Source: Actinomycetota bacterium (GTDB lineage Bacteria > Actinomycetota > Actinomycetes > Nanopelagicales > Nanopelagicaceae). Taken from it: DNA of 64,000 nucleotides. Under the pieces are notes generated by a model. That model was not told where the DNA came from. It ran no database searches and saw only the letters and a program-made list of their open reading frames with translations. This document shows positions 45,222-61,243 of the stretch, piece after piece. The stretch spans positions 18,915 to 82,914 of the forward strand of contig WLMW01000001.1 of the NCBI GenBank assembly GCA_009700025.1, given 5' to 3'. Every line of letters begins with the position of its first letter. The stretch's first letter is position 1. The translations under genes were made by a program, and so were the position numbers.

Positions 45222-46439
45222 TTAGTTGATTAATTTACTATCTCTAAGGGCCTGAATTTCTCCTTGGTCCAGTTGAAGAATCCGTTTGAGAACTTCGTCG
45301 GTATCCGCCCCAAATTTGTGAGCAGATTGTGCCTCAAGGTTATGCGTATTTGCAAAGCGTATTGGGGATGAAATATTTGGCAATTCTCCGATGTCTTCTT
45401 GATCCTTCACGGAAAAAATTGGGTTTGCCTCTGACGCACGGGGGTCATTCGCCAGAAGCTCTGTGAAAGTTTGATACTTTGACCAACTTACATTAAATTT
45501 CTTGAATATTTCACTCAGATCCTTTAAATCAATCGCAGAAATAGCAGGTCTAATGACTTCAGATATTTCTCTTCTAAGTCTGTATCGATCAGCTTCAAGA
45601 TCAAGATTTCCATCATGTTTTTCTTCGATCTCCTTCAGCCCATCTTGGATGTCTAACGAATTCTTGATTGAAACCCATTGCCTAGGAGTGAGGCCGACAA
45701 TCATTACTTCAAAATTATCTCTTGTGGTGAAGTTGGCCCCAAAAGCTCCATACAGAAAGTTTCCATCGGCTTGAATCTTTTCGGTTCCTAAATGTGCTTG
45801 TGATAACCTGCCTAGAGCTCCAACCACTGATAGAGCTACATCTGAAAGAGCAATCTTTATAAATTCTCCTTCACCCGTGGCTCTTCTTTTTCTTTCAGCT
45901 ACGAGGATTGCAATGGCAACCATGTTTCCCAGGATTAAATCCCACGTTGGTAACACGCTATTCACGGGTGCATTCGACCCCAATGGGCCTGTTATTAATG
46001 GATATCCAAAAGCCGGATGCACCGTGTAATCAACTTCGCTTGTGCCATCATAATTTCCCGTGAGGGAAACCATAATCAAATCAGGTCGCTTCTTCTTGAG
46101 TGCTTCGTAACTGAGTTCGTCCTTAGCAGGTAAGTTAGTCAGAAATATTCCTGCGTCTTTGCCCGGAGCGGTTATCAGATCAGAAACAATTTCTCTGCCC
46201 TTGCTTGATTTTAAATCCACCTGAATTGAACTTTTACCTCGGTTAAGTCCAATCCAAAACAAACTCTGGTTCTCATTAGTCACTGGCCAACGGTGGAAAT
46301 CAAGACCACCGCTTAAGTGATCAAATCTAATGACATCAGCACCCAGCTGCGCCAAAGTTAATCCACCCAATGGAGCTGCAACAAATGCTGAGCCTTCAAC
46401 GATCCTCAAATCGCTCAGAGCAGCATTTGGCAAATTCAT
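45222..46439 (-). CDS. Family III CoA-transferase (CaiB/BaiF), copy A
   Basis: This 405-residue CoA-transferase moves CoA between carboxylic acids. Family features are VEGSAFVAAPLGGLTLAQLGADVIRFDH at the N-terminus, GLNRGKSSIQVDLK, and the GEGEFIKIALSDVAL region following the active-site Asp area (TWDLILGNM). Such enzymes next to MaoC and CitE genes activate mesaconate, itaconate or citramalate-type acids in other bacteria. It lies 2 bp from the MaoC copy A. It is clearly divergent from copy B at 47911. Confidence 0.9.
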   Translation of the reverse strand: MNLPNAALSDLRIVEGSAFVAAPLGGLTLAQLGADVIRFDHLSGGLDFHRWPVTNENQSLFWIGLNRGKSSIQVDLKSSKGREIVSDLITAPGKDAGIFLTNLPAKDELSYEALKKKRPDLIMVSLTGNYDGTSEVDYTVHPAFGYPLITGPLGSNAPVNSVLPTWDLILGNMVAIAILVAERKRRATGEGEFIKIALSDVALSVVGALGRLSQAHLGTEKIQADGNFLYGAFGANFTTRDNFEVMIVGLTPRQWVSIKNSLDIQDGLKEIEEKHDGNLDLEADRYRLRREISEVIRPAISAIDLKDLSEIFKKFNVSWSKYQTFTELLANDPRASEANPIFSVKDQEDIGELPNISSPIRFANTHNLEAQSAHKFGADTDEVLKRILQLDQGEIQALRDSKLIN

Positions 46440-46441
46440 AA

Positions 46442-46981
46442 TTAGTTCAGTCGGCCTTCAATGGGACCGGTAACTGGAGTGGGGAAGTAGTTCTGTCCAA
46501 TCCCGGAGCTCTTTTTTGGAATCATGACACTTCTATGCCAGGTGACGATTTCAACACCATCTTGGTTTAACCCGCGAGTGAACATCGAAATGATTCCCAT
46601 GTCAGGTTTTGAAGAAGACTCTCGAACCCCTGTACAGATACTCTCTGCATACAGGGTATCTCCAACATAGACGGGATGAGTCAGTTTGATATCAGTCCAG
46701 CCAAGGTTAGCTACTGCATTTTGGCTCATGTCTATGACAGAGATTCCTAGGATGATTGCAACGGTTAAACCTGAATTAACGATGATTTTTCCATTCGAAA
46801 CAGGGTTCGAAAGCGCCAAGTGAGCATTGAAGTGATTTTGATTCGTGTTACATGTTAATTGTGTGAACCACGTACAGTCTGTTTCACTAATAGTTCTACC
46901 AAATGGATGTTCATAAGAATCTCCAACAACGAAATCTTCGAGAAACCTTCCCAGTACTGCTTCGTGCTTAGCCATTTTCAT
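46442..46981 (-). CDS. MaoC-family acyl-CoA hydratase/dehydratase, copy A
   Basis: This 179-residue hot-dog-fold protein resembles mesaconyl-CoA hydratase. LEDFVVGDSYEHPFGRTISETD opens it, the catalytic His region is CNTNQNHFNAHLA, and NAVANLGWTDIKLTHPVYVGDTLYAES is the conserved C-terminal part. It would add or remove water across the double bond of an enoyl-CoA. It overlaps the CitE-like lyase gene by 14 bp, a sign of coupled expression with the likely next enzyme. Confidence 0.9.
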   Translation of the reverse strand: MKMAKHEAVLGRFLEDFVVGDSYEHPFGRTISETDCTWFTQLTCNTNQNHFNAHLALSNPVSNGKIIVNSGLTVAIILGISVIDMSQNAVANLGWTDIKLTHPVYVGDTLYAESICTGVRESSSKPDMGIISMFTRGLNQDGVEIVTWHRSVMIPKKSSGIGQNYFPTPVTGPIEGRLN

Positions 46982-47924
46982 CTCCTCGTGTTGAAGGTAC
47001 TAACCCACTTGCAATTCCTTTTGCGTATAAACCTTCAGCCATTTTTCTGGACGCTTCATCAATCATCTTTCCCTCGAAAAGTAGCGCACCTTTTTGATTT
47101 GTGTTGGTTGACTCGTTAGCAAAATGTTCGATTATTCTTGCAGCTCCATCAAAAGCCGCCTGGCTTGGAGTAAACGCTGTATTAACTGTTTCAATTTGCC
47201 CTGGATGAATAACCCATTTACCGTCGTAGCCAAGTGCCGCCGAAAGCCTTGATCGATTTACCAGACCTTCAATATTAGAGATATCCGAATACGGTCCGTC
47301 GATGGCCATCAAATTATTTGCCCGTGCTGCAATTAAAATTGACATTAATACGTAGTGATAAGCATCGTCACCTGGAAAGTTAATGGGATTTTCGCCGATA
47401 TGAATAACTTGCATTCCGATACTCGCCGCAAAATCTCCAGGACCAAATATCAGTGCTTCAATTCGATCAGAGGATGATGCGATTTCACCGACACGAGAAA
47501 GCCCGAGCGCGGATTCAATTTGAATTTGTATTCTTATTGATCCAGGATTGAGCTCTCCTGATTTTTCTAATTCAGTAAGTCTCTTGCTTAAATCTCTTAC
47601 TTGTTCGGCTGATTCCACTTTTGGAATAATCAGAGAATTAAGATATTTACCAGCTTGTAGAACTATCGATGAGACATCTTCAATTCCTATAGAAGTGATT
47701 TGTTCATTTACACGCACAGCAACGGTTTTTGATTTGAATCCACCATTAATCAGTACACCAACAACCTTTTCTCTGGCAAGAGTTTTTTCAGATAATGCAA
47801 CGGAGTCTTCGAGATCCAAGAATATTTCATCTACTTCAATGGTTTTTGCTTTCTCAAGCATTTTTATACTTGATCCAGGAACAGCAAGCGTAGATCTCTT
47901 TGGACTTGTATTACTTCTTATCAT
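46968..47924 (-). CDS. CitE-like CoA-ester lyase (HpcH/HpaI family)
   Basis: This 318-residue TIM-barrel lyase is of the citrate-lyase-beta / malyl-CoA lyase group, which cleave or form 3-hydroxyacyl-CoA esters. STLAVPGSSIKMLEKA, IFLDLEDSVALSEK (Glu-Asp for Mg), RIQIQIESALGL (catalytic Glu) and EALIFGPGDFAASIG are visible. Family members cleave L-malyl-, beta-methylmalyl- or citramalyl-CoA. Overlaps on both sides (14 bp each) place it firmly within the CoA-transferase/MaoC operon. Confidence 0.9.
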   Translation of the reverse strand: MIRSNTSPKRSTLAVPGSSIKMLEKAKTIEVDEIFLDLEDSVALSEKTLAREKVVGVLINGGFKSKTVAVRVNEQITSIGIEDVSSIVLQAGKYLNSLIIPKVESAEQVRDLSKRLTELEKSGELNPGSIRIQIQIESALGLSRVGEIASSSDRIEALIFGPGDFAASIGMQVIHIGENPINFPGDDAYHYVLMSILIAARANNLMAIDGPYSDISNIEGLVNRSRLSAALGYDGKWVIHPGQIETVNTAFTPSQAAFDGAARIIEHFANESTNTNQKGALLFEGKMIDEASRKMAEGLYAKGIASGLVPSTRGDENG

Positions 47925-49056
47925 TTATCTCGCTAACAATCTCTGCTGTGTGTTCGCCTAGTTTAGGCCCGGCAGAGGTGATTTTTCCTGGTGTTTTTGA
48001 CATTCGAGCAACTAAATTCTGCATCAGAATCCCGTCGACGTGGGTGAAACTCTCTCTTGCGATGAAATGTGGATCTTCAATGACTTGTTGCATGTTGTAT
48101 ACGGGAGCTATGGCTGCATCAGCGGCTTCGATTATTCTAATCACCTCTTGCGAAGGCCTAGAGCCAATCCAATTTTGAGTGAGTTCTTCTAGTGCGTCTC
48201 TATTCTCAAACCGAGCTTGAAATGATTGGAATCGTGGGTCCCCACCGCCGCCAAGGGTTTCAATCAATCTGCCAGCAACTGATTCGGCTGAAGCCGAAAG
48301 TGCAACCCACACCCCATCAGAACATTGATATGTGCCTCTAGGAATTGAGTAGGGAATGCTCGAACCTAAGCGTGGCTGCAAGTAACCCAAAGAATCCCAA
48401 GCAGCGGGCAGCGGTCCCATGATTTGCAGAACTGAATCAACGAGATCGATATCAACGACCTGCCCTTGACCTGTTTGCTTCGCGTGAAAAATCGCCATCA
48501 TCGCCGAGAAAGATCCGACGAGAGCAGTTACTTCATCGGTGAGCGCAATAGGTGGGAGCAGAGGTCCTCCATCAGGTTCACCTAGTAAACCTGATAAACC
48601 AGATAAGGCTTCAGCAATCGTTGCAAAGCCAGGTTTTTGCGCATATGGACCTGTCTGCCCAAAACCAGAAACTCTTAAAATTACTAACTTTGGATTGCGC
48701 TTAATTAGCTCATCTGGATCTAACCCTAAATGTTCGAGTTTTCCAGGACGCATATTTTCAATGAGCAAGTCTGCAGTGGAAATTAATTCCAGCAGTATCT
48801 CTAACTCTGATTGCTGCTTCAAATCAAGAACAACTGAACGCTTTCCACGGTTTACAAGTTTCCACCATAAAGAATCGGTTTCTCCTGGACGTGTCCAACC
48901 CATGCTTCGCGTTGAATCACCAGATGGTCGTTCAATTTTTATTACATCTGCGCCGTAGTCAGCAAAATATTTTGCTACACCTGGTCCTGCAACCACAGTT
49001 GCTAAATCAATAACCTTGATGCCCACTAGTGGGCCTTGGCGATCTCTATTTCCCAT
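47911..49056 (-). CDS. Family III CoA-transferase (CaiB/BaiF), copy B
   Basis: This 381-residue protein has the family N-terminus GIKVIDLATVVAGPGVAKYFADYGADVIKIE, then LVNRGKRSVVLDLK, and GQGQVVDIDLVDSVLQIMG. It is closer to the classic formyl-CoA / succinyl-CoA:acid transferase pattern than copy A. It overlaps the lyase by 14 bp and the upstream MaoC copy B by one base. Two different CoA-transferases in one operon suggest two acids are activated, or one activation and one product-recycling step. Confidence 0.9.
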   Translation of the reverse strand: MGNRDRQGPLVGIKVIDLATVVAGPGVAKYFADYGADVIKIERPSGDSTRSMGWTRPGETDSLWWKLVNRGKRSVVLDLKQQSELEILLELISTADLLIENMRPGKLEHLGLDPDELIKRNPKLVILRVSGFGQTGPYAQKPGFATIAEALSGLSGLLGEPDGGPLLPPIALTDEVTALVGSFSAMMAIFHAKQTGQGQVVDIDLVDSVLQIMGPLPAAWDSLGYLQPRLGSSIPYSIPRGTYQCSDGVWVALSASAESVAGRLIETLGGGGDPRFQSFQARFENRDALEELTQNWIGSRPSQEVIRIIEAADAAIAPVYNMQQVIEDPHFIARESFTHVDGILMQNLVARMSKTPGKITSAGPKLGEHTAEIVSEINDKK

Positions 49057-49541
49057 TAGTTTGCCGGCTTAAGGGGAAGTAATACCGCACGTTCAAATAT
49101 GCAGACGACGTCACCATTTTGGTTTGTGCCAGTCGTTTTTACTGTGAGGATACCTTGATTGGGTTTGCTATTAGAAACTCGTTTTTCCAAGATTTCAGTA
49201 TGGGCATAAATAGTGTCGCCATGAAATACGGGGAGTATGTGCTTAAGCTCTTTAACTCCCAAACTTGCAATTGCTTTACCCGATATATCACTCACTGACA
49301 TTCCAGTTAACAAGGCGTAAATATATGTTCCAAGAACTAAATTCTTGCCACTAGGTAATTCATTTTTTGCATAATTACTATCTACGTGGATTGGACTGCC
49401 GGCCATAGTCAGCATGCTAAATATATGATCTTCGGATTCAGTAATTGTCTTGCCGGGCCAGTGCTTATAGATATCTCCAACTTCAAATTCGTCAAAGAAG
49501 CGGCCATAGCGATCAGAACGAGCGTCAAATTCGCGTGTCAT
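49056..49541 (-). CDS. MaoC-family acyl-CoA hydratase/dehydratase, copy B
   Basis: This 161-residue hot-dog-fold protein is paralogous to copy A: FFDEFEVGDIYKHWPGKTITESEDH, the catalytic region MAGSPIHVDSNYAKNE, and ELKHILPVFHGDTIYAHTEI. It is the first gene of the minus-strand operon reaching down to the lipoyl protein. Its promoter overlaps the LacI-type operator at 49601, with a predicted leader of about 32 nt. Confidence 0.9.
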   Translation of the reverse strand: MTREFDARSDRYGRFFDEFEVGDIYKHWPGKTITESEDHIFSMLTMAGSPIHVDSNYAKNELPSGKNLVLGTYIYALLTGMSVSDISGKAIASLGVKELKHILPVFHGDTIYAHTEILEKRVSNSKPNQGILTVKTTGTNQNGDVVCIFERAVLLPLKPAN

Positions 49542-49579
49542 ATGCAGCCCTCGCCGTATTCCAATCTTTTAGTACCCCT

Positions 49580-49608
49580 AACATACAGAAAAGGCGATTT
49601 TTAGTCAA
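49580..49608 (-). promoter_or_regulatory. Predicted promoter of the MaoC/CoA-transferase/CitE operon
   Basis: Read on the minus strand, TTGACT (-35) lies inside the left arm of the operator palindrome, followed by exactly 17 bp and TATGTT (-10). Transcription would start near 49573, giving a leader of about 32 nt before the MaoC copy B ATG. Repressor bound at 49601-49620 would cover the -35 box. Confidence 0.55.
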
Positions 49609-49620
49609 TCGGTTGACTAA
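49601..49620. promoter_or_regulatory. LacI-type operator, site 1
   Basis: The perfect palindrome TTAGTCAATCGGTTGACTAA has 8 bp arms around TCGG, with the central CG typical of LacI-family operators. The same 20 bp recur exactly at 53987, next to the lacI gene. The site lies between the divergent MaoC operon and enolase gene, and both predicted -35 boxes are inside its arms. Confidence 0.8.
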
Positions 49621-49641
49621 GCACTGCTCTCTACTTTATAT
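49613..49641 (+). promoter_or_regulatory. Predicted promoter of the enolase-superfamily gene, leaderless
   Basis: TTGACT (-35, in the right arm of the operator) is followed by a 17 bp spacer and TTATAT (-10, 49636-49641). The expected start of transcription, about 7 bp further, coincides with the GTG at 49649, so the mRNA would be leaderless. No Shine-Dalgarno sequence is present before that GTG, consistent with this reading. Confidence 0.55.
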
Positions 49642-49648
49642 TTCATTT

Positions 49649-50785
49649 GTGTCTAATTCTAAGGTCACTCAACTAAACGCCGCAACAGTTGAGGCAGAGT
49701 TACCAGCCCCTGTTGTGTTTGGCGATTGGATAATGCGTACTCGCGAATTTGCAGTAGTCAGAGTGGTTTTAAGTTCTGGGGTTGAAGGTTGGGCTTTTGG
49801 ACTTACTCGTGATGGTGCCATTGCTGAGCAAATCAGAAAAACATTGCGAAACATATATGTAGGTACTTTCTCAAAGGACTTGGAAACTACTTTTAAAATC
49901 GCTCAACGCCGGAGTTTGGCATCACATTCAGCTGGTGTAGGTCTCAGAGCTCTTTCTCTCGTTGATTTAGCAATGTGGGATGCATGTGCAAAAGAGGCGG
50001 GTCAATCCATTGCAAAGTTCTTAAGTGGAGATAGACCTAAAATGCCAGCAACTGCAATCATTGGTTACCCCCCGGCCACCATGGGGCCACAGGAAGTCTT
50101 TGATCAAGTTACAGATTTATACGCTCAAGGCTGGCGAAGATTTAAAGCACCGGTAGGAACAAGTAATCAAGCTACGGCCGACAGACTTCTTGCTGCAAGA
50201 AAAGCAGCACCTGATGCATGGATCGGCTGTGATGCTGCATGGATTTATAACGATGTTCCATCCGCATTAGAGCTTTTAGATTTATTACAGGAAGTCAATC
50301 TGGGGTGGTTTGAAGATATTTTTCCACCTGGTAATGCTCAAGTTGTTGCAGATCTAAGAAAAAGTACAAATATTCCAATCGCAATGGGCGATGAACAAGG
50401 GGGGATATATTACCCAGAAGCGCTAATCGCAAAAAATGCTGTCGATGTAGTCCGAATTGATTTAACGTGCATGGGCGGGATAACGGGCGGTAGAAGAATT
50501 GTGGATGAGTGTTTGAGCGCAAATGTAAGCTTTGCCGCTCATATGTTTGCCCATGTGCATAGCCAAGTTTTTGGTGCTTGGGGCTTTACGGAAGTTCCGA
50601 TTGAGTGGGGAGTTCCTTGGACAGGGGTCGATCCTTATGCAGATAGTTTAGAGCAGCCAAAAATTGTGGCCGGCGGACTCATGAAGCCGCTCAGTGAAAA
50701 ACCTGGATTTGGTGATTTGGTAAATTTTGATTGGATAAAGACACAGAAATGCGTAGACCCAGAAGGGATTTTAGTAAGTAAATGA
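49649..50785 (+). CDS. Enolase-superfamily dehydratase, copy A
   Basis: This 378-residue protein is of the mandelate racemase / muconate lactonising group. The track frame begins at 49445, but that would put the operator and promoter inside the gene; the GTG at 49649 also aligns with copy B's start. Family sites visible are GLTRDG, GLRALSLVDLAMWD, the first metal ligand in WIGCDAAW, the second in WFEDIFPPG, GDEQGG, and a catalytic-type His in AAHMFAHVHSQ. It probably dehydrates a sugar acid to a 2-keto-3-deoxy acid. It overlaps the next gene by 4 bp. Confidence 0.85.
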   Translation: MSNSKVTQLNAATVEAELPAPVVFGDWIMRTREFAVVRVVLSSGVEGWAFGLTRDGAIAEQIRKTLRNIYVGTFSKDLETTFKIAQRRSLASHSAGVGLRALSLVDLAMWDACAKEAGQSIAKFLSGDRPKMPATAIIGYPPATMGPQEVFDQVTDLYAQGWRRFKAPVGTSNQATADRLLAARKAAPDAWIGCDAAWIYNDVPSALELLDLLQEVNLGWFEDIFPPGNAQVVADLRKSTNIPIAMGDEQGGIYYPEALIAKNAVDVVRIDLTCMGGITGGRRIVDECLSANVSFAAHMFAHVHSQVFGAWGFTEVPIEWGVPWTGVDPYADSLEQPKIVAGGLMKPLSEKPGFGDLVNFDWIKTQKCVDPEGILVSK

Positions 50786-51648
50786 AACTTGCATGCGGAG
50801 ACCATAGTTTTCCATTACTAGATCATGAGTCCACTATAGATTTAATTGCTGGGATGGGTTTTGAGGGTTTTGATCTAGCACTGATGGGTAATCGTTCACA
50901 CATTAGACCAGAACACATTCGCAGTGATATCCCATTGGCTGCAGACACAATTGGAAAATCTATTCGCCGCCGAGGTTTAGAAATAAGTGATGTTTTTTCT
51001 ATACCTTGGACAACTTTTGACACCATGGCACCTAATAATCCTGATCCAGAAGAAAAAATTGCTTCACGCAAATTATTTGAAGATCTTCTTGAGTTCACCC
51101 TGCGCATAAAGGCTCCAGGTATCACTATGGTTCCTGGAATTGATTTCGAAACTCTTGGTCATGAGAGATCCTTAGAATTAGCTGCAGAGGAGTTGCAGTG
51201 GCGTGCGGCAAAAATGAAAACCGAAGGCCTCCGCTTTAGTGTTGAGTGCCATATTGGCTCGGTTGCTGCGTCACCAGAAGATGTTTTGACTTTACTTAGC
51301 CTTGCACCAGATCTTAAATTAACATTGGATTACACACACTTTATTGCTCCGGGTTATTTGCAAGAAGATATTGATCGTCTTGCTCCATACGCTGGCCATG
51401 CTCAAATTCGCGGTGGACGTCCAGGGGCAGGTCAGTGCTCCATGAAAGAGAACACTATTGATTATGAATCTGTAGTTTCTGTGTTAGATCAATCTGGTTA
51501 CGACGGCTATCTTGCAGTTGAATACGTTTGGATTGATTGGGAAAATATGAATCGTTGCGACATTGTCTCGGAAAGTGTTTTGATGCGGGATCGCCTTAAG
51601 GCCGCTTTGGCTGGAGAAAAGTGGACTTATCCGGAGTCTTCAACTTAA
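50782..51648 (+). CDS. TIM-barrel sugar isomerase/epimerase family protein, second copy
   Basis: This 288-residue xylose-isomerase-like TIM-barrel protein has ligand regions LRFSVECHIGS (Glu, His), LKLTLDYTHFIAPG (Asp, His), GHAQIRGGRPG and YLAVEYVWIDW (Glu). The ATG overlaps the enolase copy A stop (ATGA), so both are made from the operator-controlled transcript. Substrate unknown. It is only distantly similar to the copy at 44054, suggesting different substrates. Confidence 0.85.
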   Translation: MKLACGDHSFPLLDHESTIDLIAGMGFEGFDLALMGNRSHIRPEHIRSDIPLAADTIGKSIRRRGLEISDVFSIPWTTFDTMAPNNPDPEEKIASRKLFEDLLEFTLRIKAPGITMVPGIDFETLGHERSLELAAEELQWRAAKMKTEGLRFSVECHIGSVAASPEDVLTLLSLAPDLKLTLDYTHFIAPGYLQEDIDRLAPYAGHAQIRGGRPGAGQCSMKENTIDYESVVSVLDQSGYDGYLAVEYVWIDWENMNRCDIVSESVLMRDRLKAALAGEKWTYPESST

Positions 51649-51665
51649 TTTGTTACTGTAATTCG

Positions 51666-52247
51666 TTAGTGAAGCGAACTATCTGCATCACCAATAGTCC
51701 ATGATGTGAACTCACCAATTAAATTAGGCCCAGTTGGCGCGCAAAGATACGGTCCTGCTTGCCATAATAAATTCTCATTTAATGGTGCTACACGAACCAT
51801 TTGAAAATCACCATCAGATTTTGCTCGAATCGTCAGTGCATTACCTTGGCGACTCGCCCGAATAGTTACTAGTTTGCCAAACCACTCTGACACTGGCGCG
51901 GTAGACCAGTCGGAATTATTAATCGTAACTACTGCCCCTAGTTGTGGAGTTCCATCAGATTGCTCAACAGAGGCTTTAGTCCAATTTTCCTCATCTGCAT
52001 AAACAAAAATTCCACATTGATCAAAATTTTGTGTGTAGTTCAGTCGAAATGTAACCTCCATCGCGGTACCGTCGTCAAAACTTCTCAGTAATGCGTGGCC
52101 ATCATCATGCACAAAGTTATAAGAAGTATTTCTCCACCAATCACTACCTTCGGCGGCCTTCACTAGAAGGTGGCCTTCGTTATTTTCCAAAGAGACAGGA
52201 TCCCGTGACCAGTTTCCTGAAGTCCAACTAAGCGAGCGACTATTCAC
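51666..52247 (-). CDS. DUF1349-type beta-sandwich protein
   Basis: I choose the GTG at 52247 because AGGAG precedes it by 6 bp; the track start adds 28 residues. The 193-residue protein opens SRSLSWTSGNW and contains KAAEGSDWWRNTSYNFVHDDGHALL, FDQCGIFVYADEENWTKASVEQSDG and TIRAKSDGDFQMVRVAPL, the pattern of the DUF1349 concanavalin-like family. It may bind or modify a carbohydrate but has no known activity. It is the only gene in this part of the island that runs against its neighbours, and it abuts a truncated SDR gene. Confidence 0.8.
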   Translation of the reverse strand: MNSRSLSWTSGNWSRDPVSLENNEGHLLVKAAEGSDWWRNTSYNFVHDDGHALLRSFDDGTAMEVTFRLNYTQNFDQCGIFVYADEENWTKASVEQSDGTPQLGAVVTINNSDWSTAPVSEWFGKLVTIRASRQGNALTIRAKSDGDFQMVRVAPLNENLLWQAGPYLCAPTGPNLIGEFTSWTIGDADSSLH

Positions 52248-52339
52248 AATAATCTCCTTGCTATTTGCTGCCTGATAGAAGTCTTTCGGCATGCCCTTTT
52301 GAAGCCCAAATACTGCTAAGAAGTGAGTCAAACTCCTTA

Positions 52340-52855
52340 TTAAATCGAGAAGTAGGTGCTGACACAGTTAATGCTGCAATCAAATGTATCGAGATTGAAG
52401 ATGTCAGTGAAGAACAATGGCAAAATCACATGGACTCCAACGTTAATGCAACCTTTTTTCTCTCCCGGGCGGCAGCGAACATTATGAAAGGCCAAGACTT
52501 TGGCGGAAAAATAATTCTGATGTCATCTGTTGCTTGGTTATCAGGTGGCATGTCCACACGTTTGCCATATGCAACGACTAAAGGTGCAGTCACCACAATG
52601 GCCAGAGGATTGGCTAAAGCTTATGGGCCTTATGGAATAACAGTGAATACAGTTGCCCCAGGATTAATTGATACCGCCATGATGCGAAAAGGTTTAAGTG
52701 ATTCTGCACGAAGCCAAATGGAAGAGGCAACCCCGCTCAAGCGCTTTGGTACTCCTGAAGAGGTGGCATCGGTCATCGTTTTTCTTGCTTCGGATGGTGC
52801 GAGTTTTATTTCTGGGGCGACAATAAACGTGTCAGGTGGGTTTACCCTCTATTGA
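52340..52855 (+). pseudogene. Short-chain dehydrogenase lacking its N-terminus
   Basis: The frame encodes the C-terminal two-thirds of a classical SDR: IEDVSEEQWQNHMDSNV, the catalytic Ser in IILMSSVAW, the Tyr-x3-Lys in PYATTKGAV, and the end SFISGATINVSGGFTLY. The Rossmann part with TGxxxGxG and the NAG motif, about 90 residues, is absent. Upstream sequence in any frame does not supply it; the 5' region of the DUF1349 gene lies there instead. Without a cofactor site it is presumably inactive. A very short gene from an internal start is conceivable but unlikely. Confidence 0.75.
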
Positions 52856-52938
52856 TTCAGGGGCTCTTTTGTATTGATTCCGACTACACTAAGAGTGGTT
52901 CGTAGAGTGCGAGCAGTCCACGGAATAAGGGGTGCAAG

Positions 52939-53979
52939 GTGGCTAGAAACAGTGATTTAGCTAGCGCTAAACCCCAAAGAGCAACTATTCGTGACGTAGC
53001 CCGAATAGCCAAAGTCGATCCAAGTCTGGTTTCAAGAATTGTAAATAACGATCCAAAAGCTAGTGCAACGTTAGCAACCAGAAAACGAGTTCTAGATGCA
53101 GTTGAAGAGTTAGGATATCGAGCTAACTCGGCTGCACGAATGCTAAAAACTGCTCGTACGCAGATGATCGGTCTCCTTTTACCAGATTTTTCTAATCCCA
53201 TGTATTCAGCAATTATCTCTGGAGTTGAAAAACGGTGTACAGAGATTGGGTATGGAGTTTTGCTCGGCGATCATGCTGAGGGTCACTCCGAAAAAACCTT
53301 CACAGATTTACTTGAAAGTGGTCAAGTCGATGGACTTCTCATTGCCTCAGGAACTCTTCCTGACTCATTTTTAAAAAATAATATTTTAAATCACCATGCT
53401 TCAGTTGTGATGATAAATAGAAGAGTAAGAGGCGCAGATGCCAGCGTGATTGTAAAAGACGAACTCGGGGCAGAGCTTGCAGTCCAACATCTTTCACAGT
53501 ATGGAACAAAGACAATTACTGGAATTTTTGGTCACCGAAATGTTGATACCGCCCAGCGTCGTAAAAAGGGTTTTGAGAGTGCTGCTGAAAAATTTGGGCT
53601 TAAACATCAGAGTATCGAAGTGGCATCTTGGGGCATGGAGGACGGCAGAAAAGTCGGAGTTGAACTTTTAAGTAAGAAAGTAATACCTGATGCCGTATTT
53701 GCTTCAACCATCATGATGGGAATTGGATTCTTAAGAGCGGCACACGAGATGTCGATTAAAATTCCAGAGGATTTACGGGTGGTCGCACTTCACGATAGTC
53801 CGATCGCTAATTACCTCACCCCATCCCTTACAACTATTAATCTTCCGACCATTGAGATGGGTGCGCAGGCAGTCGACTTGCTGGTCAGCATGATGAATGG
53901 AGGTTCACCACGGAACATGGTGGTGAGTGATCTTCCGACCTTGACTATTCGCGAGTCATCGCGCTTGGATATTGATTAG
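52939..53979 (+). CDS. LacI-family transcriptional regulator
   Basis: This 346-residue regulator has a helix-turn-helix near residues 17-40 (ATIRDVARIAKVDPSLVSRIVN), the LacI hinge helix (RANSAARMLKT), and a periplasmic-binding-like effector domain (TQMIGLLLPDFSNPMYSAII). It ends with the family's VALHDSPIANYLTPSLTTI and IEMGAQAVDLLV segments. The GTG start begins MARNSDL. An exact operator palindrome follows 7 bp after its stop and another lies at 49601. It most likely represses the island genes until a pathway sugar or sugar acid binds. Confidence 0.93.
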   Translation: MARNSDLASAKPQRATIRDVARIAKVDPSLVSRIVNNDPKASATLATRKRVLDAVEELGYRANSAARMLKTARTQMIGLLLPDFSNPMYSAIISGVEKRCTEIGYGVLLGDHAEGHSEKTFTDLLESGQVDGLLIASGTLPDSFLKNNILNHHASVVMINRRVRGADASVIVKDELGAELAVQHLSQYGTKTITGIFGHRNVDTAQRRKKGFESAAEKFGLKHQSIEVASWGMEDGRKVGVELLSKKVIPDAVFASTIMMGIGFLRAAHEMSIKIPEDLRVVALHDSPIANYLTPSLTTINLPTIEMGAQAVDLLVSMMNGGSPRNMVVSDLPTLTIRESSRLDID

Positions 53980-53986
53980 ATCGAAT

Positions 53987-54006
53987 TTAGTCAATCGGTT
54001 GACTAA
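53987..54006. promoter_or_regulatory. LacI-type operator, site 2
   Basis: This is an exact 20/20 copy of site 1 (TTAGTCAATCGGTTGACTAA), here extended to an 11 bp-arm palindrome by flanking T and A. It lies between lacI and the VOC gene that starts the long plus-strand operon 54069-58781. Unlike site 1, I see no convincing 17 bp-spaced -10 box after its TTGACT, so the exact promoter is not placed. Confidence 0.8.
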
Positions 54007-54068
54007 ATATAGCCTTTCTAATAGCCTGAGCGTTATTATCGCAAAATGACACGAAAGGGGCTTGCTGG

Positions 54069-54542
54069 ATGGCACAGATAACCAAAGCTCATCACACTGG
54101 AATATCTGTGCGCTCTTTAAAAGAGTCAACAAAGTTTTATAAAGAACTTTTAGGTTTTGAAGAGGTTTTTTCTTGGAATCCACAAGCAGATTACATTGGA
54201 GTTCTTACAGGTTATCCCGAGGTAAATCTCAATGCAACTATTCTAAAAATGCCAGGAGTGGAGATTTTTCTAGAGCTTTTAGAGTATGGAAATGTTGATC
54301 TCAAGACAATTGATCACGGAAATGCTAACCCTGGGATTGCTCACATAGCTTTTTTTGTTGATGATGTTGATGAGTGGTACACAATCTTGACAAGTAAAGG
54401 TGTTAAAAGTGTTTCAGAACCCGTGACTCCCACGATAGGTCCAAATAAAGGCGGCCGTGCAATCTATATGATTGATCCAGATGGTGTCAGGGTGGAGTTA
54501 ATTCAAAGTTCACAATCTTTCGGTGAGTATAAGGGGGAGTAA
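54069..54542 (+). CDS. VOC (glyoxalase/epimerase) superfamily protein
   Basis: This 157-residue metal-dependent vicinal-oxygen-chelate enzyme has two beta-alpha-beta3 modules. The likely ligands are His in AHHTGISVRSL, Glu in VEIFLELLEYG, His in PGIAHIAFFVDD and Glu in DGVRVELIQSS. The spacing recalls methylmalonyl-CoA epimerase and lactoylglutathione lyase. Acting beside CoA-ester enzymes, an epimerase of a CoA ester is possible, but that is inference. It is the first gene behind operator site 2. Confidence 0.85.
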   Translation: MAQITKAHHTGISVRSLKESTKFYKELLGFEEVFSWNPQADYIGVLTGYPEVNLNATILKMPGVEIFLELLEYGNVDLKTIDHGNANPGIAHIAFFVDDVDEWYTILTSKGVKSVSEPVTPTIGPNKGGRAIYMIDPDGVRVELIQSSQSFGEYKGE

Positions 54543-54546
54543 AAAT

Positions 54547-54828
54547 ATGGAGTTTATGGTGCACATTAAAAATACTTTCCCAGCTGATGGAAGTAAAGAA
54601 CTTCTGACACAGTTAGTTAAGCAAGAAGGTGAGAGAGCTGCTGAACTAGCTGCCCAAGGAGTAATTAAAAAGCTTTGGCGAAGAGCAGGCCAAAAATCAA
54701 ATGTTGGAATCTGGATAGCAGCTGATGCAACTCAGTTACATTCGGCGATATCGAGTTTACCTTTCTTCCCTTGGCTTGAAGTTGAAGTCTGGCCATTAGC
54801 TGAACATCCAAATGACCCAAAGAAATAG
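54547..54828 (+). CDS. Muconolactone-isomerase-like small protein
   Basis: This 93-residue protein is read from ATG 54547, which has a strong AAGGGGGAG upstream (the track start lies in the preceding gene). MEFMVHIKNTFPADGSKE, then an ERAAELAAQGVIKKLWR helix, AADATQLHSAISSLPFFPWLEVEVWPL and HP match the ferredoxin-like fold of the muconolactone isomerase family. No aromatic-degradation genes are nearby. A lactone- or keto-acid-handling role in the sugar-acid route is a guess. Confidence 0.8.
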   Translation: MEFMVHIKNTFPADGSKELLTQLVKQEGERAAELAAQGVIKKLWRRAGQKSNVGIWIAADATQLHSAISSLPFFPWLEVEVWPLAEHPNDPKK

Positions 54829-54839
54829 GGAGATCTCAA

Positions 54840-55844
54840 ATGACTGTAATGCGAACTCGTCAGGCTGTTATTCAGGCGTTATCGGATGAGCTTGAAAGCG
54901 ACCCAACGGTTTTCTTGATGGGCGAAGACATTGGTTCGGGGGGTCCATTCAAAGCCACTGAAGGTCTGATTGAAAAATTTGGAGAAGAGCGCGTTATCGA
55001 TACGCCAATTTCTGAGATGGCTTTTCTAGGTGCTGGCGTTGGCGCAGCTGCGATGGGCATGCGTCCAGTTGTAGAGATGATGTTCATTGAGTTTATTGGC
55101 GTTGCTCTCGATCAACTCACTACACAAGGGGCTTTTTACCGGTACCTGTCGAGAGGCGCTTATCAAGTCCCGCTAACAATTCGCGCTGCAGCTGGTGCAG
55201 GAATGGGTTTTGGTTGTCAACATTCTCAGATTCTAGATCAGTGGTTTAGAGGCAATGCCGGAATAAGTCTGGTTATTCCTTCGAGTCCACAGTCGATGTA
55301 TGGACTTTTAAGAAGTGCTATTAGAAGCAATGATCCAGTCGTAGTTCTTGAACATAAAGCTTTGTATGGTGAGCGCGGCGATGTCATTACGGGTGAAGCA
55401 GGAATAATCCCAATCGGTCAAGCAAATGTAATTACTGAAGGTACAGATTTAACTATCGTAGCAATTGGTAGCACTGTACATACAGCCAAGGCAGCAATGG
55501 AATCACAAAGTGAATGGAGCGCTGACATAATCGATCTTCAGACTTTAATTCCATGGGATAAAGCAACAGTTATGAAGAGTGTCGCCAAGACCGGACGCCT
55601 GGTGATTGTAGAAGAGAGTTCTTATTCCGGAGGTTGGGGCAGTGAGATTTCCTCAGAGGTTGTTTCACAGTTGTGGGGAAAACTTAAAGCTCCGCCGCAT
55701 CGCATAACTTCTCCGGATGCTCCAATTCCATATGCGCAAGAGTTAGAAAAGCGCTACTTACCAAGTCCTGAATATGTAACTTCTCAAATTAGTGAATTGC
55801 TAAAAACTGGTAAATGTCCAGCACCATGGTGGGAGGGGTTTTAA
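54840..55844 (+). CDS. 2-oxoacid dehydrogenase E1 component, beta subunit
   Basis: This 334-residue transketolase-like subunit resembles the pyruvate / branched-chain / acetoin dehydrogenase E1 beta chains: VFLMGEDIGSGG, RVIDTPISEMAFLGAGVGAAAMGMRPVVEMMFIEF, and a C-terminal domain with DIIDLQTLIPWDKATV. It pairs with the alpha subunit encoded next. The beta-before-alpha order is the reverse of the commonest arrangement. The E1 substrate cannot be told from the sequence. Confidence 0.92.
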   Translation: MTVMRTRQAVIQALSDELESDPTVFLMGEDIGSGGPFKATEGLIEKFGEERVIDTPISEMAFLGAGVGAAAMGMRPVVEMMFIEFIGVALDQLTTQGAFYRYLSRGAYQVPLTIRAAAGAGMGFGCQHSQILDQWFRGNAGISLVIPSSPQSMYGLLRSAIRSNDPVVVLEHKALYGERGDVITGEAGIIPIGQANVITEGTDLTIVAIGSTVHTAKAAMESQSEWSADIIDLQTLIPWDKATVMKSVAKTGRLVIVEESSYSGGWGSEISSEVVSQLWGKLKAPPHRITSPDAPIPYAQELEKRYLPSPEYVTSQISELLKTGKCPAPWWEGF

Positions 55845-55846
55845 GA

Positions 55847-56833
55847 ATGACTACATCACTAATTCGTCGTCAAGCATTAGATACAGAGCTCGGACGTCTT
55901 GAAAGAATGCTTGAAATCCGTGCAGTGGAAGAAAGTATTCAGACTCTTTATAACGACGGTCATGTGCGCGGTAGTACCCACTTAGCAAATGGACAAGAAG
56001 CCATTTCGGTTGGAATCGCAAGTATTTTGCGGCCAACAGATGTTGTCACGTGTACTTATCGTGGCCACGCAACTGCATTGGCTTTAGGTGTTTCTCCTGA
56101 AGGAGTTCTTGGAGAAATCTGCGGACGAGTAATCGGTTGCTCTGGCGGCTTGGGTGGATCAATGCACCTCATGGATGCCAGCGTCGGACTTATGCCAACG
56201 TTTGCCATCGTTGGTGCGGGCTTGCCAGTGGCAGCTGGCGTGGCTCTTGCAGCCAAACTGAAAAAGAATGACTCTGTTGCTCTTACTATTTTTGGAGATG
56301 GCTCAACCAATATTGGCGCTTTCCATGAAACATTGAACATGGCAAGCATATTCAAACTCCCAATAGTTTTTGTCATTGAAAATAACTTATATGGTGAGTA
56401 CACGAGAATTAACCTCAGTACTCCAATTAGCGATTTAGCTGACCGTGCCGATTCTTACGCGATGCGAAAAGAAATAGTAGATGGCCAAGATATTGATGCA
56501 GTCCGTGCGTCAATATCAGCAGCTGTTAAGTATGCACGCGAAGGAAATGGTCCATCACTTATTGAAGCTAAGACTTATCGATATAGCGGCCACTCGCGTT
56601 CAGACCCAGCGACCTACCGTTTACCTGGCGAACTTGATGAGTGGAAGAAACGCGATCCTTTGGATATTGCGGCAGCAAAGCTGATCTCAAATGGAACCAT
56701 AACTGGCCAGGATTTAGAAAAGTTGAAATCTGAAATCGACACTCGAGTTGCAAAAGCTATTGAGACTGTTCTCGCTAGCGATGGTCCTTCACTAGAGGCA
56801 CTCATGCAACACGTGAGTGCGAGCCGGAAGTAG
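55847..56833 (+). CDS. 2-oxoacid dehydrogenase E1 component, alpha subunit
   Basis: This 328-residue ThDP-binding subunit is read from ATG 55847, preceded by GGAGGGG. The ThDP motif runs from FGDGSTNIGAFHETLN to VIENNLYGEY. RGHATALALGVSPEGVL and the phosphorylation-loop region YRYSGHSRSDPATYR fit the pyruvate/acetoin dehydrogenase family. No E2 acyltransferase or E3 gene follows. The only lipoyl acceptor in the window is the single-domain protein at 44960. Confidence 0.92.
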   Translation: MTTSLIRRQALDTELGRLERMLEIRAVEESIQTLYNDGHVRGSTHLANGQEAISVGIASILRPTDVVTCTYRGHATALALGVSPEGVLGEICGRVIGCSGGLGGSMHLMDASVGLMPTFAIVGAGLPVAAGVALAAKLKKNDSVALTIFGDGSTNIGAFHETLNMASIFKLPIVFVIENNLYGEYTRINLSTPISDLADRADSYAMRKEIVDGQDIDAVRASISAAVKYAREGNGPSLIEAKTYRYSGHSRSDPATYRLPGELDEWKKRDPLDIAAAKLISNGTITGQDLEKLKSEIDTRVAKAIETVLASDGPSLEALMQHVSASRK

Positions 56834-56840
56834 TTATTAA

Positions 56841-57638
56841 ATGAGTGAAGACGATCTAGTTCCTGTTGATTATGCAAAAAACCTTTTTAATTTGCATGGT
56901 CGCACTGCAGTCGTAACTGGTGGTGGGAGTGGATTAGGCGCTGCAATAGCAATCGGATATGCCCAAGTAGGCGTAAAGGTTGCATTGTTAGACGTGAATG
57001 AGCAGGGCATGAAAGCCACGCAAGCAATCATTGAGTCGCAGGGTGGAATTGCTAAGAGCTTTACTTGTGATGTGACTTCAAAGGAAAATCTACAATCAGT
57101 ATCCGATCAGATTGTTACTGAATTTTCAAGCGCGGATATTTTAGTAAATAGTGCAGGCTCAGCTTTTAGGTGTCCAGCTGAAGATTTTCCAGAGGATAAA
57201 CTGGACTTTATTCTCAACCTCAATCTAAAAGGAACCTATCTAGCTGGTCAGGTTTTTGGCAATGTGATGCTTAAGCAGGGCAAAGGAAGCATTATTAATA
57301 TTGCATCCATTGGTGGTTTTAATGCGTACCCTCTAGCAAGCGCTTACTTGGCTTCTAAAGGTGGAGTTGTGCAGTTAACAAAGTCATTTGCGCTTGAGTG
57401 GGGTAGCCGAGGTGTTCGCGTCAATGGCATTGGCCCAACTCTGATGGATTCTCCGCTTACAAAAGCCGGTGCAGCAACATCATCTATAACTGCTGACTTC
57501 ATCAAGTCCAGAATGCTCAGAGACCGACTTGGCCTGCCACGCGAACTAGTGGGAGCTGCAATTTTCTTAGGCAGTGATGCATCGCTATTGGTTAATGGTC
57601 ACACAATTATGTGTGACGACGGATACTTGATTGCATAA
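56841..57638 (+). CDS. Short-chain dehydrogenase/reductase (SDR)
   Basis: This 265-residue NAD(P)-dependent classical SDR has cofactor site VVTGGGSGLGAAIA, Asp after the second strand (LLDVNEQ, favouring NAD), NSAGS, catalytic Ser in NIASIGGF, and Tyr-x3-Lys in SAYLASKGG. It lies 7 bp after the E1 alpha gene and 3 bp before enolase copy B, so it acts in the same pathway. Gluconate 5-dehydrogenase-like or 2-keto-3-deoxy-acid dehydrogenase activities are typical for SDRs in such operons. Confidence 0.9.
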   Translation: MSEDDLVPVDYAKNLFNLHGRTAVVTGGGSGLGAAIAIGYAQVGVKVALLDVNEQGMKATQAIIESQGGIAKSFTCDVTSKENLQSVSDQIVTEFSSADILVNSAGSAFRCPAEDFPEDKLDFILNLNLKGTYLAGQVFGNVMLKQGKGSIINIASIGGFNAYPLASAYLASKGGVVQLTKSFALEWGSRGVRVNGIGPTLMDSPLTKAGAATSSITADFIKSRMLRDRLGLPRELVGAAIFLGSDASLLVNGHTIMCDDGYLIA

Positions 57639-57641
57639 TAG

Positions 57642-58781
57642 ATGAAGATTACTAGCGTCCGCGTAGCAACAATTAACCACATACTTCCTGTGCCGATTAT
57701 TTACGGCAATTGGATAATGGATCATCGAGAGTTTGCTTTAGTGCGCGTTGATTTAGAGGATGGTACCGCTGGTTTTGCATATGGATTAACTCGAGATGGC
57801 CCCATTGCATCGATAGTTCACCGTTCAATCGCGCCTTGTTATGTTGGCAGAGAGATTGATGACCCACAACAGGTCTTTTATGGAGCTTTGTGGACTAATC
57901 ACGCAGTGCACGCTGGTGGAATCGGAATGAGAGCTCTTTCATTAGTTGATATCGCCTGCTGGGATGCACTTGCGAGGCACAAAAATAAATCATTTCAAGA
58001 AATTCTTGGCGGGGAGTTATCTGAACTACCTGCTACAGCAATTGTGGGATACCCGCCAACAATGCCTGCGGATGAGCTTGCAGAGCAGATTGTCGAGTTA
58101 CAGAAAAAAGGTTGGAATCGTTTCAAGATACCGATTTCACCCGATCTAGAGTTTTCTGAATTACGTTTACGAGCCGCACGTGAAGCTGCGCCCAATGACT
58201 GGATTGGTTTTGACATTAATATGGTTTTGCGAACAAGTGAGGCAGTCCTTGAATTCGAAAGTAAAGTCAGAGATTTGAAGTTAGGTTGGATCGAAGATGT
58301 TGTACCGCCAGGTGATGCTGAGATGGTTGCACGAGTAAGACGCGGTTCAAAAACACCCATTGCAATGGGAGATGAGCAAGGTGGTGCTTACCATCCAGAA
58401 GCTCTTCTTACTGCTAATGCAGTTGATGTTATTCGAGTTGACGCAACTACAAATGGTGGAATAACTGGACTCCGTAAATCCCTTGCGCAAGCAAAACTAG
58501 CTAATGTAAAAGTGTCTCCACACATGTTTCCACATTTGCATTCACGGCTTCTGCCGATTTTAGGATTTAAAGATGTTCCTATCGAATGGGGGATTCCAGG
58601 TACTGGGGTGCATCCAATGGATGACGGGTTGGAGCAACCGGTCATTATTGACGGAAAAATGAAACCGCTGGCAACTTCAATAGGTTTGGGCAAAATAGTT
58701 GATTACGATTGGATAACGAAACAGCAGGTTAGTGATGAGCATGGAGCGCTAGCGAATATTCCCACAACCTGCCTCAAATAA
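57642..58781 (+). CDS. Enolase-superfamily dehydratase, copy B
   Basis: This 379-residue paralogue of copy A at 49649 shares GNWIMDHREFALVRV, GLTRDGPIAS, GMRALSLVDIACWD, WNRFKIPIS, a first metal ligand in WIGFDINM, WIEDVVPPG, GDEQGG and SPHMFPHLHSR. The differences around the first ligand (FDINM here, CDAAW in copy A) suggest different substrates. It probably dehydrates an aldonate to a 2-keto-3-deoxy acid. It is the last gene of the operon behind operator site 2. Confidence 0.87.
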   Translation: MKITSVRVATINHILPVPIIYGNWIMDHREFALVRVDLEDGTAGFAYGLTRDGPIASIVHRSIAPCYVGREIDDPQQVFYGALWTNHAVHAGGIGMRALSLVDIACWDALARHKNKSFQEILGGELSELPATAIVGYPPTMPADELAEQIVELQKKGWNRFKIPISPDLEFSELRLRAAREAAPNDWIGFDINMVLRTSEAVLEFESKVRDLKLGWIEDVVPPGDAEMVARVRRGSKTPIAMGDEQGGAYHPEALLTANAVDVIRVDATTNGGITGLRKSLAQAKLANVKVSPHMFPHLHSRLLPILGFKDVPIEWGIPGTGVHPMDDGLEQPVIIDGKMKPLATSIGLGKIVDYDWITKQQVSDEHGALANIPTTCLK

Positions 58782-58825
58782 ACTCAGAAGTTTTTAGATT
58801 TTCCTAAAATTACTCAAAGCTGGCA

Positions 58826-58845
58826 TAGGTCAAACGCTTGACTTA
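58826..58845. promoter_or_regulatory. Probable LacI-type operator, site 3 (diverged)
   Basis: TAGGTCAAACGCTTGACTTA keeps the GTCAA...TTGAC arms and a central CG at the same spacing as sites 1 and 2, with changes at the outer and spacer positions. It lies 104 bp upstream of the SDR gene at 58949, in the only sizeable gap in this part of the island. This placement supports function, but the match is imperfect. Confidence 0.55.
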
Positions 58846-58948
58846 TGGCTGGTGGAAACCTTAGTGTTTATTCAAAGGCTCAGGTTGAGTCAATTAGAAA
58901 GATCCTTCAGGGGGAATAATGGTTACAAAATCGTAAGAGAGGATAATT

Positions 58949-59734
58949 ATGTTAGATCAAGAATTTAGTAGTGATATCGCAGTTGTTACCGGAGGAGCTG
59001 CTGGACTTGGCCGTGAAATATCTCTCGCACTAGCATTAAGCGGGGCAAAAGTTTTAGCACTCGATGTTGATCTAGTTGGTTTAGAGGAAACGAAGGCAAT
59101 CGCAGCTGAATCTGGCGGAGAAGTAATTATTCTTCAATGTGATGTTGCGGATAGCGAGAAAGTTAAAGAGGCTTTCAAATATGTAGAAAAAGAGTTTGGC
59201 TTGTGCACAATTATGGTAGCAGCAGCTGGAATTGCCTTATATACAGAGTATTTGGCAATGGGTGAAAAGGAGATGGACCGTGCAATCGCTGTAAATCTTA
59301 AGGGACCATTGTTGTGCGCCCAAGAATCACTTCGTCATATGGAAAAAGCTGGCAGGGGAAATATTATTTTTATCTCGTCAGTTCAAGCGGTCATGAGTTT
59401 ATTTGGTTGTGTGGTTTATGCAGCAACTAAGGCGGGATTAATTGCGGCTGCTCGAACATTGTCGCTTGAAACAGGAAAGATGGGAGTTCGTGTAAATACT
59501 ATTTCCCCAGGAACGATTGATACACCAATGCTCGCTCGAGACTTAGCAAGTATGAACCGTGAAGAGGCATCAAAGTTTCTTGAAAAGGTAAAGGCCGCAA
59601 ATGTTCTAGGCCGTATTGGAAAGCCATCAGAAATCGCCGATGCCGTTAAGTATTTATCATCATCTAAAGCGTCATATGTAACGGGCATCGATTTAAGAGT
59701 TGATGCTGGCTTCACAGCATTGAAAGTCATCTAG
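58949..59734 (+). CDS. Short-chain dehydrogenase/reductase (SDR), likely sugar dehydrogenase
   Basis: This 261-residue classical SDR has cofactor site VVTGGAAGLGREIS, Asp in LALDVDLVG (NAD preference), AAAGIAL, catalytic Ser in FISSVQAV, and Tyr-x3-Lys in VVYAATKAG. A GAGAGG precedes the ATG. As first gene before a D-lyxose-isomerase-like cupin and SMP-30 lactonases, oxidation of an aldose to its lactone is the most natural role. Confidence 0.9.
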   Translation: MLDQEFSSDIAVVTGGAAGLGREISLALALSGAKVLALDVDLVGLEETKAIAAESGGEVIILQCDVADSEKVKEAFKYVEKEFGLCTIMVAAAGIALYTEYLAMGEKEMDRAIAVNLKGPLLCAQESLRHMEKAGRGNIIFISSVQAVMSLFGCVVYAATKAGLIAAARTLSLETGKMGVRVNTISPGTIDTPMLARDLASMNREEASKFLEKVKAANVLGRIGKPSEIADAVKYLSSSKASYVTGIDLRVDAGFTALKVI

Positions 59735-59752
59735 CGGAGATCGGAGGATACC

Positions 59753-60304
59753 TTGGCCACAACTAGAAAAGAGTTTGAAGAAAGACAGGCTTGGACGGCA
59801 AACCAACTTAGGGCAGCAGGTTATCCATTGACGGATGATGAAGAAAGACGCATAGAAGTTGCAGATTTTGGTCTTGGCGAGATTGACCACTTCGGAATTC
59901 AATTGATTACCTACATCAATACCGAACGAGTGTGCTCCAAAGATATAGTCATGAAACCTTGGCAGATTTGTCCTGAGCATCTTCATCCAAATGTGGGCAC
60001 AGAATTGGGTAAAGAGGAGACTTTCCGCTGCAGAAAAGGCTTGGTCTACTTATATGTTCAGGGAGAGCCAACAAACTCTCCATCACATCGACTGCGCGCA
60101 GATGATGAAGGAAAAGTGAGTGTGTTTCACGAAGTAGTTTTGAAGCCAGGAGACCAATACACCATTTTTCCCAATAGTTTGCACTGGTTTCAAGCAGGAG
60201 AAGAAGGGTGCATCGTCACTGAGTTCTCAACAAGCAGTACCGACGGTTCTGATATTTTCACGGACAAAGAAATCATTCGTGCTCCTAAGGTTCCAACACA
60301 ATAG
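59753..60304 (+). CDS. D-lyxose ketol-isomerase-like cupin
   Basis: This 183-residue cupin resembles the D-lyxose/D-mannose isomerase family. The metal site is suggested by His-x-His in CPEHLHPNVG, Glu in KEETFRCRKG and a later His in PNSLHWFQ. The start is TTG with GGAGG 5 bp upstream. Sugar isomerases of this family interconvert aldoses and ketoses such as D-lyxose and D-xylulose. Its presence is the best hint that the pathway handles a pentose or related sugar. Confidence 0.85.
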   Translation: MATTRKEFEERQAWTANQLRAAGYPLTDDEERRIEVADFGLGEIDHFGIQLITYINTERVCSKDIVMKPWQICPEHLHPNVGTELGKEETFRCRKGLVYLYVQGEPTNSPSHRLRADDEGKVSVFHEVVLKPGDQYTIFPNSLHWFQAGEEGCIVTEFSTSSTDGSDIFTDKEIIRAPKVPTQ

Positions 60305-60377
60305 ATTGAAAAAATAGCCTTCATCAAATGATGAAAAGAAGACAACAGTGAAACACGAGCTAGAAAAGGAGACTACG

Positions 60378-61220: not shown

Positions 61221-61243
61221 GGGTTTGGCGAAGTTACACAACT

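Follow-up and report, generated by a model that had tools for sequence, protein, structure and literature searches.

Probable operators of a local LacI-type repressor overlap predicted −35 boxes in a sugar-acid and CoA-ester gene cluster of acI actinobacteria

The window (a 64,000-nucleotide stretch of actinobacterial contig WLMW01000001.1) contains a gene for a LacI-family regulator flanked by operons for sugar-acid and CoA-ester metabolism. The genes, predicted operators (sites 1 to 3) and predicted promoters are as follows.

45222 to 49541, minus strand: CoA-ester operon behind site 1, encoding MaoC1, CaiB1, a CitE-like lyase, MaoC2 (RipB/Ich-like), and CaiB2 (2-methylfumaryl-CoA isomerase-like)
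49580 to 49608, minus strand: predicted promoter of the MaoC1 operon; −35 TTGACT in operator 1, 17-bp spacer, −10 TATGTT; score 9/12
49601 to 49620, no strand: operator 1, TTAGTCAATCGGTTGACTAA, exact match; common to the divergent MaoC1 and enolase1 operons
49613 to 49642, plus strand: predicted promoter of the enolase1 operon; −35 TTGACT (49613 to 49618) in operator 1, 18-bp spacer, −10 TATATT (49637 to 49642); score 10/12
49649 to 51648, plus strand: operon behind site 1, encoding MR/MLE enolase-superfamily enzyme 1 and a xylose-isomerase-like TIM barrel protein
52939 to 53979, plus strand: LacI-family regulator; GTG start, helix-turn-helix (HTH) ATIRDVARIAKVDPSLVSRIVNNDPKA, hinge NSAARMLK
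53987 to 54006, no strand: operator 2, TTAGTCAATCGGTTGACTAA, exact match; precedes the VOC/E1 operon
53999 to 54027, plus strand: predicted promoter of the VOC/E1 operon; −35 TTGACT in operator 2, 17-bp spacer, −10 TAGCCT
54069 to 58781, plus strand: operon behind site 2, encoding VOC, MIase, E1beta, E1alpha, SDR2, and MR/MLE enzyme 2
58826 to 58845, no strand: operator 3, TAGGTCAAACGCTTGACTTA, centre ACGC; third site in the window, ahead of the SDR3 operon
58838 to 58867, plus strand: predicted promoter of the SDR3 operon; −35 TTGACT in operator 3, 18-bp spacer, TAGTGT
58949 to 62140, plus strand: operon behind site 3, encoding SDR3, a D-lyxose-isomerase-like protein, and two SMP-30 lactonases

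An initial annotation had noticed the 20-mer TTAGTCAATCGGTTGACTAA at 49601 to 49620 and 53987 to 54006. Both copies are there, and at full 20-bp length they are the only exact ones in the genome. Their gene context was also given correctly: site 1 lies between the divergent MaoC (start at 49541, minus strand) and MR/MLE enolase-superfamily (start at about 49649, plus strand) genes, and site 2 begins 7 bp past the lacI stop (53979), before the VOC-MIase-E1beta-E1alpha operon. Site 1 is 29 to 48 bp from enolase1 and 60 to 79 bp from MaoC1, while site 2 is 63 to 82 bp from VOC and site 3 is 104 to 123 bp from SDR3. The earlier judgment that a chance origin is very unlikely holds up, since shuffles of the window gave no match to TTAGTCAATCGGTTGACTAA even with 3 mismatches allowed. 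The description of the 20-mer as a perfect palindrome does not: it keeps the symmetry at 18 of its 20 positions, around a TCGG centre, and its reverse complement, TTAGTCAACCGATTGACTAA, differs at two central positions, making it an imperfect palindrome whose asymmetric centre had been overlooked. Every site is an even, 20-bp motif with CG at the centre, and the consensus is wTAGTCAAnCGnTTGACTAw. The centres fall into two classes, TCGG at sites 1 and 2 and ACGC at site 3 and most sites on contig C26; each class is kept between species in the same orientation relative to the promoter, and the two may differ in affinity.

Where the initial annotation counted two sites, we find at least three in the window and others beyond it. 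A pattern search of the genome (1.38 Mb in 69 contigs, 85% complete) located exact copies of the 16-bp core AGTCAAnCGnTTGACT outside the window at C18:5336, C26:12996, and C26:15021, as well as a weaker match with 2 mismatches at C26:13121; all four probably belong to the operator set. The genes that the C26 sites precede are those of a sugar ABC importer, an aldose-epimerase-like protein, and an SDR with 49% identity to SDR3; the C18 site precedes a P450 gene followed by two SDR genes, one encoding a protein 52% identical to SDR2. Instead of many copies unrelated to the pathway, the scan thus returned few exact cores, nearly all ahead of sugar-catabolic or import genes. Looser searches were not useful for naming sites: the pattern with 3 mismatches gave 9 matches against 4.6 expected, mostly chance, and the number of 2-mismatch core matches besides C26:13121 (for example, on C7, C11, C22, C23, and C68) was near that of the control. 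One of these, C68:32369, falls where a pyruvate-phosphate-dikinase-like gene starts and appears to be a chance match.

The right half of the motif, TTGACT, is itself a −35 hexamer at most sites. In this genome, TANNNT follows at 17 or 18 bp at seven of eight promoter-facing sites, against a background of 0.019 per site (binomial p, 8e-12); the exception is C26:13121. Adding the L034, L035, and L040 loci brings the count to 18 of 19 sites, these relatives not being independent of one another. Other TTGACT-TANNNT spacings showed no peak at the same sites. Because the sites were picked by the operator motif and not by a −10 element, the spacing test is independent of site choice. At site 1 both halves act as predicted −35 boxes, one for each divergent operon. 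A promoter scan of 49000 to 59100 ranked 49613 to 49642 as the top promoter-like site and also listed the divergent MaoC1 promoter; the number of promoter-like sites in this region was not above chance. At sites 2 and 3 the −10 elements resemble TATAAT only weakly, and TANNNT and its spacing at the VOC/E1 promoter are retained in orthologous loci.

The regulator encoded at 52939 to 53979, the only one in the window cluster, has a LacI HTH (PF00356, 41.3 bits; cut-off, 27) and a Peripla_BP_3 domain (PF13377, 111.8 bits; cut-off, 26.5). It fits no named subfamily (RbsR, CytR, PurR, CcpA, or others): the best NCBIfam equivalog scored 188/382 bits, far under its cut-off, and a literature search did not find a name for it. 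Among its orthologues the HTH is essentially invariant and the hinge NSAARMLK is present in all, including Ala51 and Leu54, the residues that go with a central CG in the LacI family (Camas 2010, PMC2978694). Arg20 in this family normally pairs with G at half-site position NT-6 (Camas 2010, PMC2978694), a rule not followed here, where T occupies NT-6. The same deviation recurs in L126 and L127, from two genomes of another family, whose LacI HTH is about 54% identical. In both, GTCAAACGATTGAC comes after the lacI stop (44 bp on in L127, about 170 bp on in L126) and ahead of a sugar-binding protein gene, with TAACGT 17 bp beyond the palindrome. In L129, AGACAAGCGCTTGTCT lies upstream of lacI, ahead of a divergent binding-protein gene. 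Since these palindromes adjoin related lacI genes, the half-site type seems common to a branch of the LacI family; as a lead from three loci, this falls short of proof. In L126 (positions 185 to 2800), from a high-GC actinobacterium, a CaiB-family gene, the related lacI, GTCAAACGATTGAC, and the sugar-binding protein gene stand in a row. The genome encodes five other LacI proteins, which we rejected as binders; the one on C26 has a different recognition helix (VSRATVSR), and the surroundings of those examined contained no CG-centred palindrome of this type.

LacI orthologues that are 62 to 96% identical occur at ten loci in nine other assemblies, including the complete acI-A7 genome of strain IMCC19121 (locus L034; PMC5301498), and LacI is the sole regulator gene noticed across all these loci. 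Wherever the contigs extend far enough, each operator stays in its intergenic gap, at an almost constant distance from the genes. Operator 1 is conserved in L034, L035, L036, L038, L039, L041, and L042; the exception is site 1 of L037, where a short run with N breaks the palindrome in what looks like an assembly gap. Within the genus, the exact 16-bp core occurs in 5 of 135 genomes, with two copies in each, and the same five carry the LacI orthologue (core with LacI, 5/5; core without LacI, 0/130; Fisher p, 3e-9); because the whole cluster moves as one unit, this co-occurrence ties the operator to the cluster rather than to LacI alone. MR/MLE enzyme 2 and CaiB1 are likewise confined to these five genomes, barring one truncated contig. 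G122 has the CoA operon and lacks LacI and the operator, as its contig ends within CaiB1. The complete, 1.5-Mb IMCC19121 genome has three core sites at ≤1 mismatch, all within the cluster. Across the order, 8 of 296 genomes, from 4 of 17 genera, have this LacI, which marks the module as rare and patchy; no relative was found on viral contigs.

Very probably, then, both identical motifs are binding sites of the adjoining LacI-type repressor. The sequence evidence makes it highly likely that this repressor acts locally, keeping the promoters of an oxidative sugar-acid/CoA-ester pathway blocked until a metabolite frees it from them. When inducer is absent, a LacI dimer would bind the CG-centred operator, with the hinge leucine inserted at the central CpG. 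As the operator contains the −35 hexamer, the bound dimer would cover the −35 box and exclude σ70-type RNA polymerase, repressing by occlusion. A pathway sugar or sugar acid would free LacI from the operator and switch on jointly, at site 3 and on contig C26, the import/oxidation operon; at site 2, the E1/dehydratase operon; and at site 1, the dehydratase and CoA-ester operons. We infer the inducer, physical binding, and the direction of control from sequence. The proposal in the initial annotation that one regulator controls the CoA, enolase, and E1 operons thus appears right in substance, being well supported by conservation of the operators in the same gaps and by their co-occurrence with the LacI orthologue in the genus; what it missed, and what extends it, is the operon behind the third operator in the window and the overlap with −35 boxes.

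As a local LacI regulon whose operators incorporate −35 boxes, the system is well supported and of an ordinary type. Like other local repressors of the family (PMC4052901, PMC2978694), this one has an HTH and a periplasmic-binding-like sensor domain, a gene adjoining sugar operons, and even, ~20-bp palindromes with a central CG located 30 to 140 bp upstream of start codons. It differs from them in its GTCAA half-site with T at NT-6 despite Arg20, in the conservation of nonpalindromic TCGG and ACGC centres, and in a half-site that doubles as a −35 hexamer.

That departure from the R20/G(NT-6) rule is one reason to ask if a transcription factor other than the adjacent LacI binds the palindrome; another is the gene for an IclR-type regulator in the clusters of IMCC19121 and L041. 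We consider this unlikely, because the IclR gene is truncated in the window and was not seen in L035, yet the operators persist; moreover, even, CG-centred palindromes are the norm for LacI-family proteins (Ravcheev 2014, PMC4052901), and the same half-site adjoins the genes of LacI relatives from other families of the class. It is more improbable still that the palindrome amounts to overlapping −35 boxes of strong constitutive or σ-factor-specific promoters with nothing binding it as an operator. The presence of TTGACT with TANNNT 17 or 18 bp downstream at nearly every site is what such promoters would show, but sites that serve a single direction (2, 3, and C26:15019) keep the upstream half and the CpG centre though no −10 element faces them, and the motif is missing from 130 other genomes of the genus, where −35 boxes are expected too; we regard this reading as extremely unlikely.

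The regulator might instead be an activator or a global regulator, and the extra sites at the P450-SDR operon on C18 and at the C26 genes do enlarge the regulon of this genome. Such a role is very unlikely, however: the operator and the −35 hexamer share bases, so that a dimer bound there would obstruct polymerase, and IMCC19121 has cluster-internal sites only.

In the most abundant freshwater bacteria, a group that is hard to culture, the shared operators would make four operons part of a single pathway and turn loose annotations into a testable hypothesis on the sugar that these bacteria use; as a simple tag, the operator can also point to more of the regulon, for example the importer on C26 and the P450 operon on C18. 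In IMCC19121 and the genome of L041, the site 3 operon opens with a periplasmic sugar-binding protein, an ATPase, and a permease, and in the L035 group it opens with a different importer. In the window (58826 to 58949), no sugar ABC importer follows site 3; an importer with its own operator is on C26, and elsewhere the genome has only fragments 31 to 34% identical to the IMCC19121 binding protein. That the importer was exchanged while the operator stayed supports a single sugar regulon.

Importer, SDR, lactonases, and MR/MLE enzymes in the regulon are what is seen in oxidative, nonphosphorylating sugar-acid pathways (SDR, SMP-30 lactonase, and MR/MLE dehydratase or cycloisomerase). The cluster differs from these in its linked E1alpha/E1beta pair and its operon of CoA-transferase, MaoC, CitE-like, and 2-methylfumaryl-CoA-isomerase-like proteins. 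No E2 or E3 gene was evident among the ORFs of 42 to 63 kb to accompany the 2-oxo acid dehydrogenase E1beta/E1alpha genes (54840 to 56833). CaiB2 is nearest to 2-methylfumaryl-CoA isomerases, scoring 407 and 403 bits against solved structures (NCBIfam, 432/725 bits, under the curated cut-off). With Mct-like CaiB2, Ich-like MaoC2, and a CitE-like lyase, all under curated cut-offs, the operon at 45222 to 49541 resembles mesaconyl-CoA/citramalyl-CoA chemistry. We tentatively suggest, while holding it somewhat doubtful as a whole, that freshwater acI actinobacteria possess a so far undescribed module in which an imported sugar would be oxidized, hydrolysed at the lactone stage, and dehydrated to a 2-oxo acid that E1 passes on to mesaconyl/citramalyl-type CoA esters, with a single repressor in control whose operators also serve as −35 boxes, the divergent promoter of one lineage being a 54-bp mirror kept by template switching or selection.

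Relative to L034 and L041, the window has an internal deletion at 52264 to 52852: the final 51 residues of the IclR-type regulator (minus strand) are joined to the final 162 residues of an SDR, and a second SDR that lies between the two in those loci is absent; this is either a real loss or an assembly error. The assemblies containing L038 and L042 are labelled Betaproteobacteria and Alphaproteobacteria, respectively; their LacI proteins are about 73% identical and the loci are syntenic with the actinobacterial ones, and both are probably mis-binned contigs.

As in other operators shared by divergent promoters, a single operator between two operons overlaps both −35 boxes at site 1. In L035 (operator at 6067), L036 (3704), L039 (6067), and L042 (6076), unlike in those known cases, it forms the core of a 54-bp inverted repeat, with 26 of 27 arm positions matching, that takes in the −35 box and spacer of each promoter and runs into the first bases of each −10 element. 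This repeat has five variable columns: at two, a change in one arm has its exact mirror image in the other, and at a further two the same holds everywhere but in L038. Such a pattern could come from template-switch repair of quasipalindromes or from selection for symmetry.
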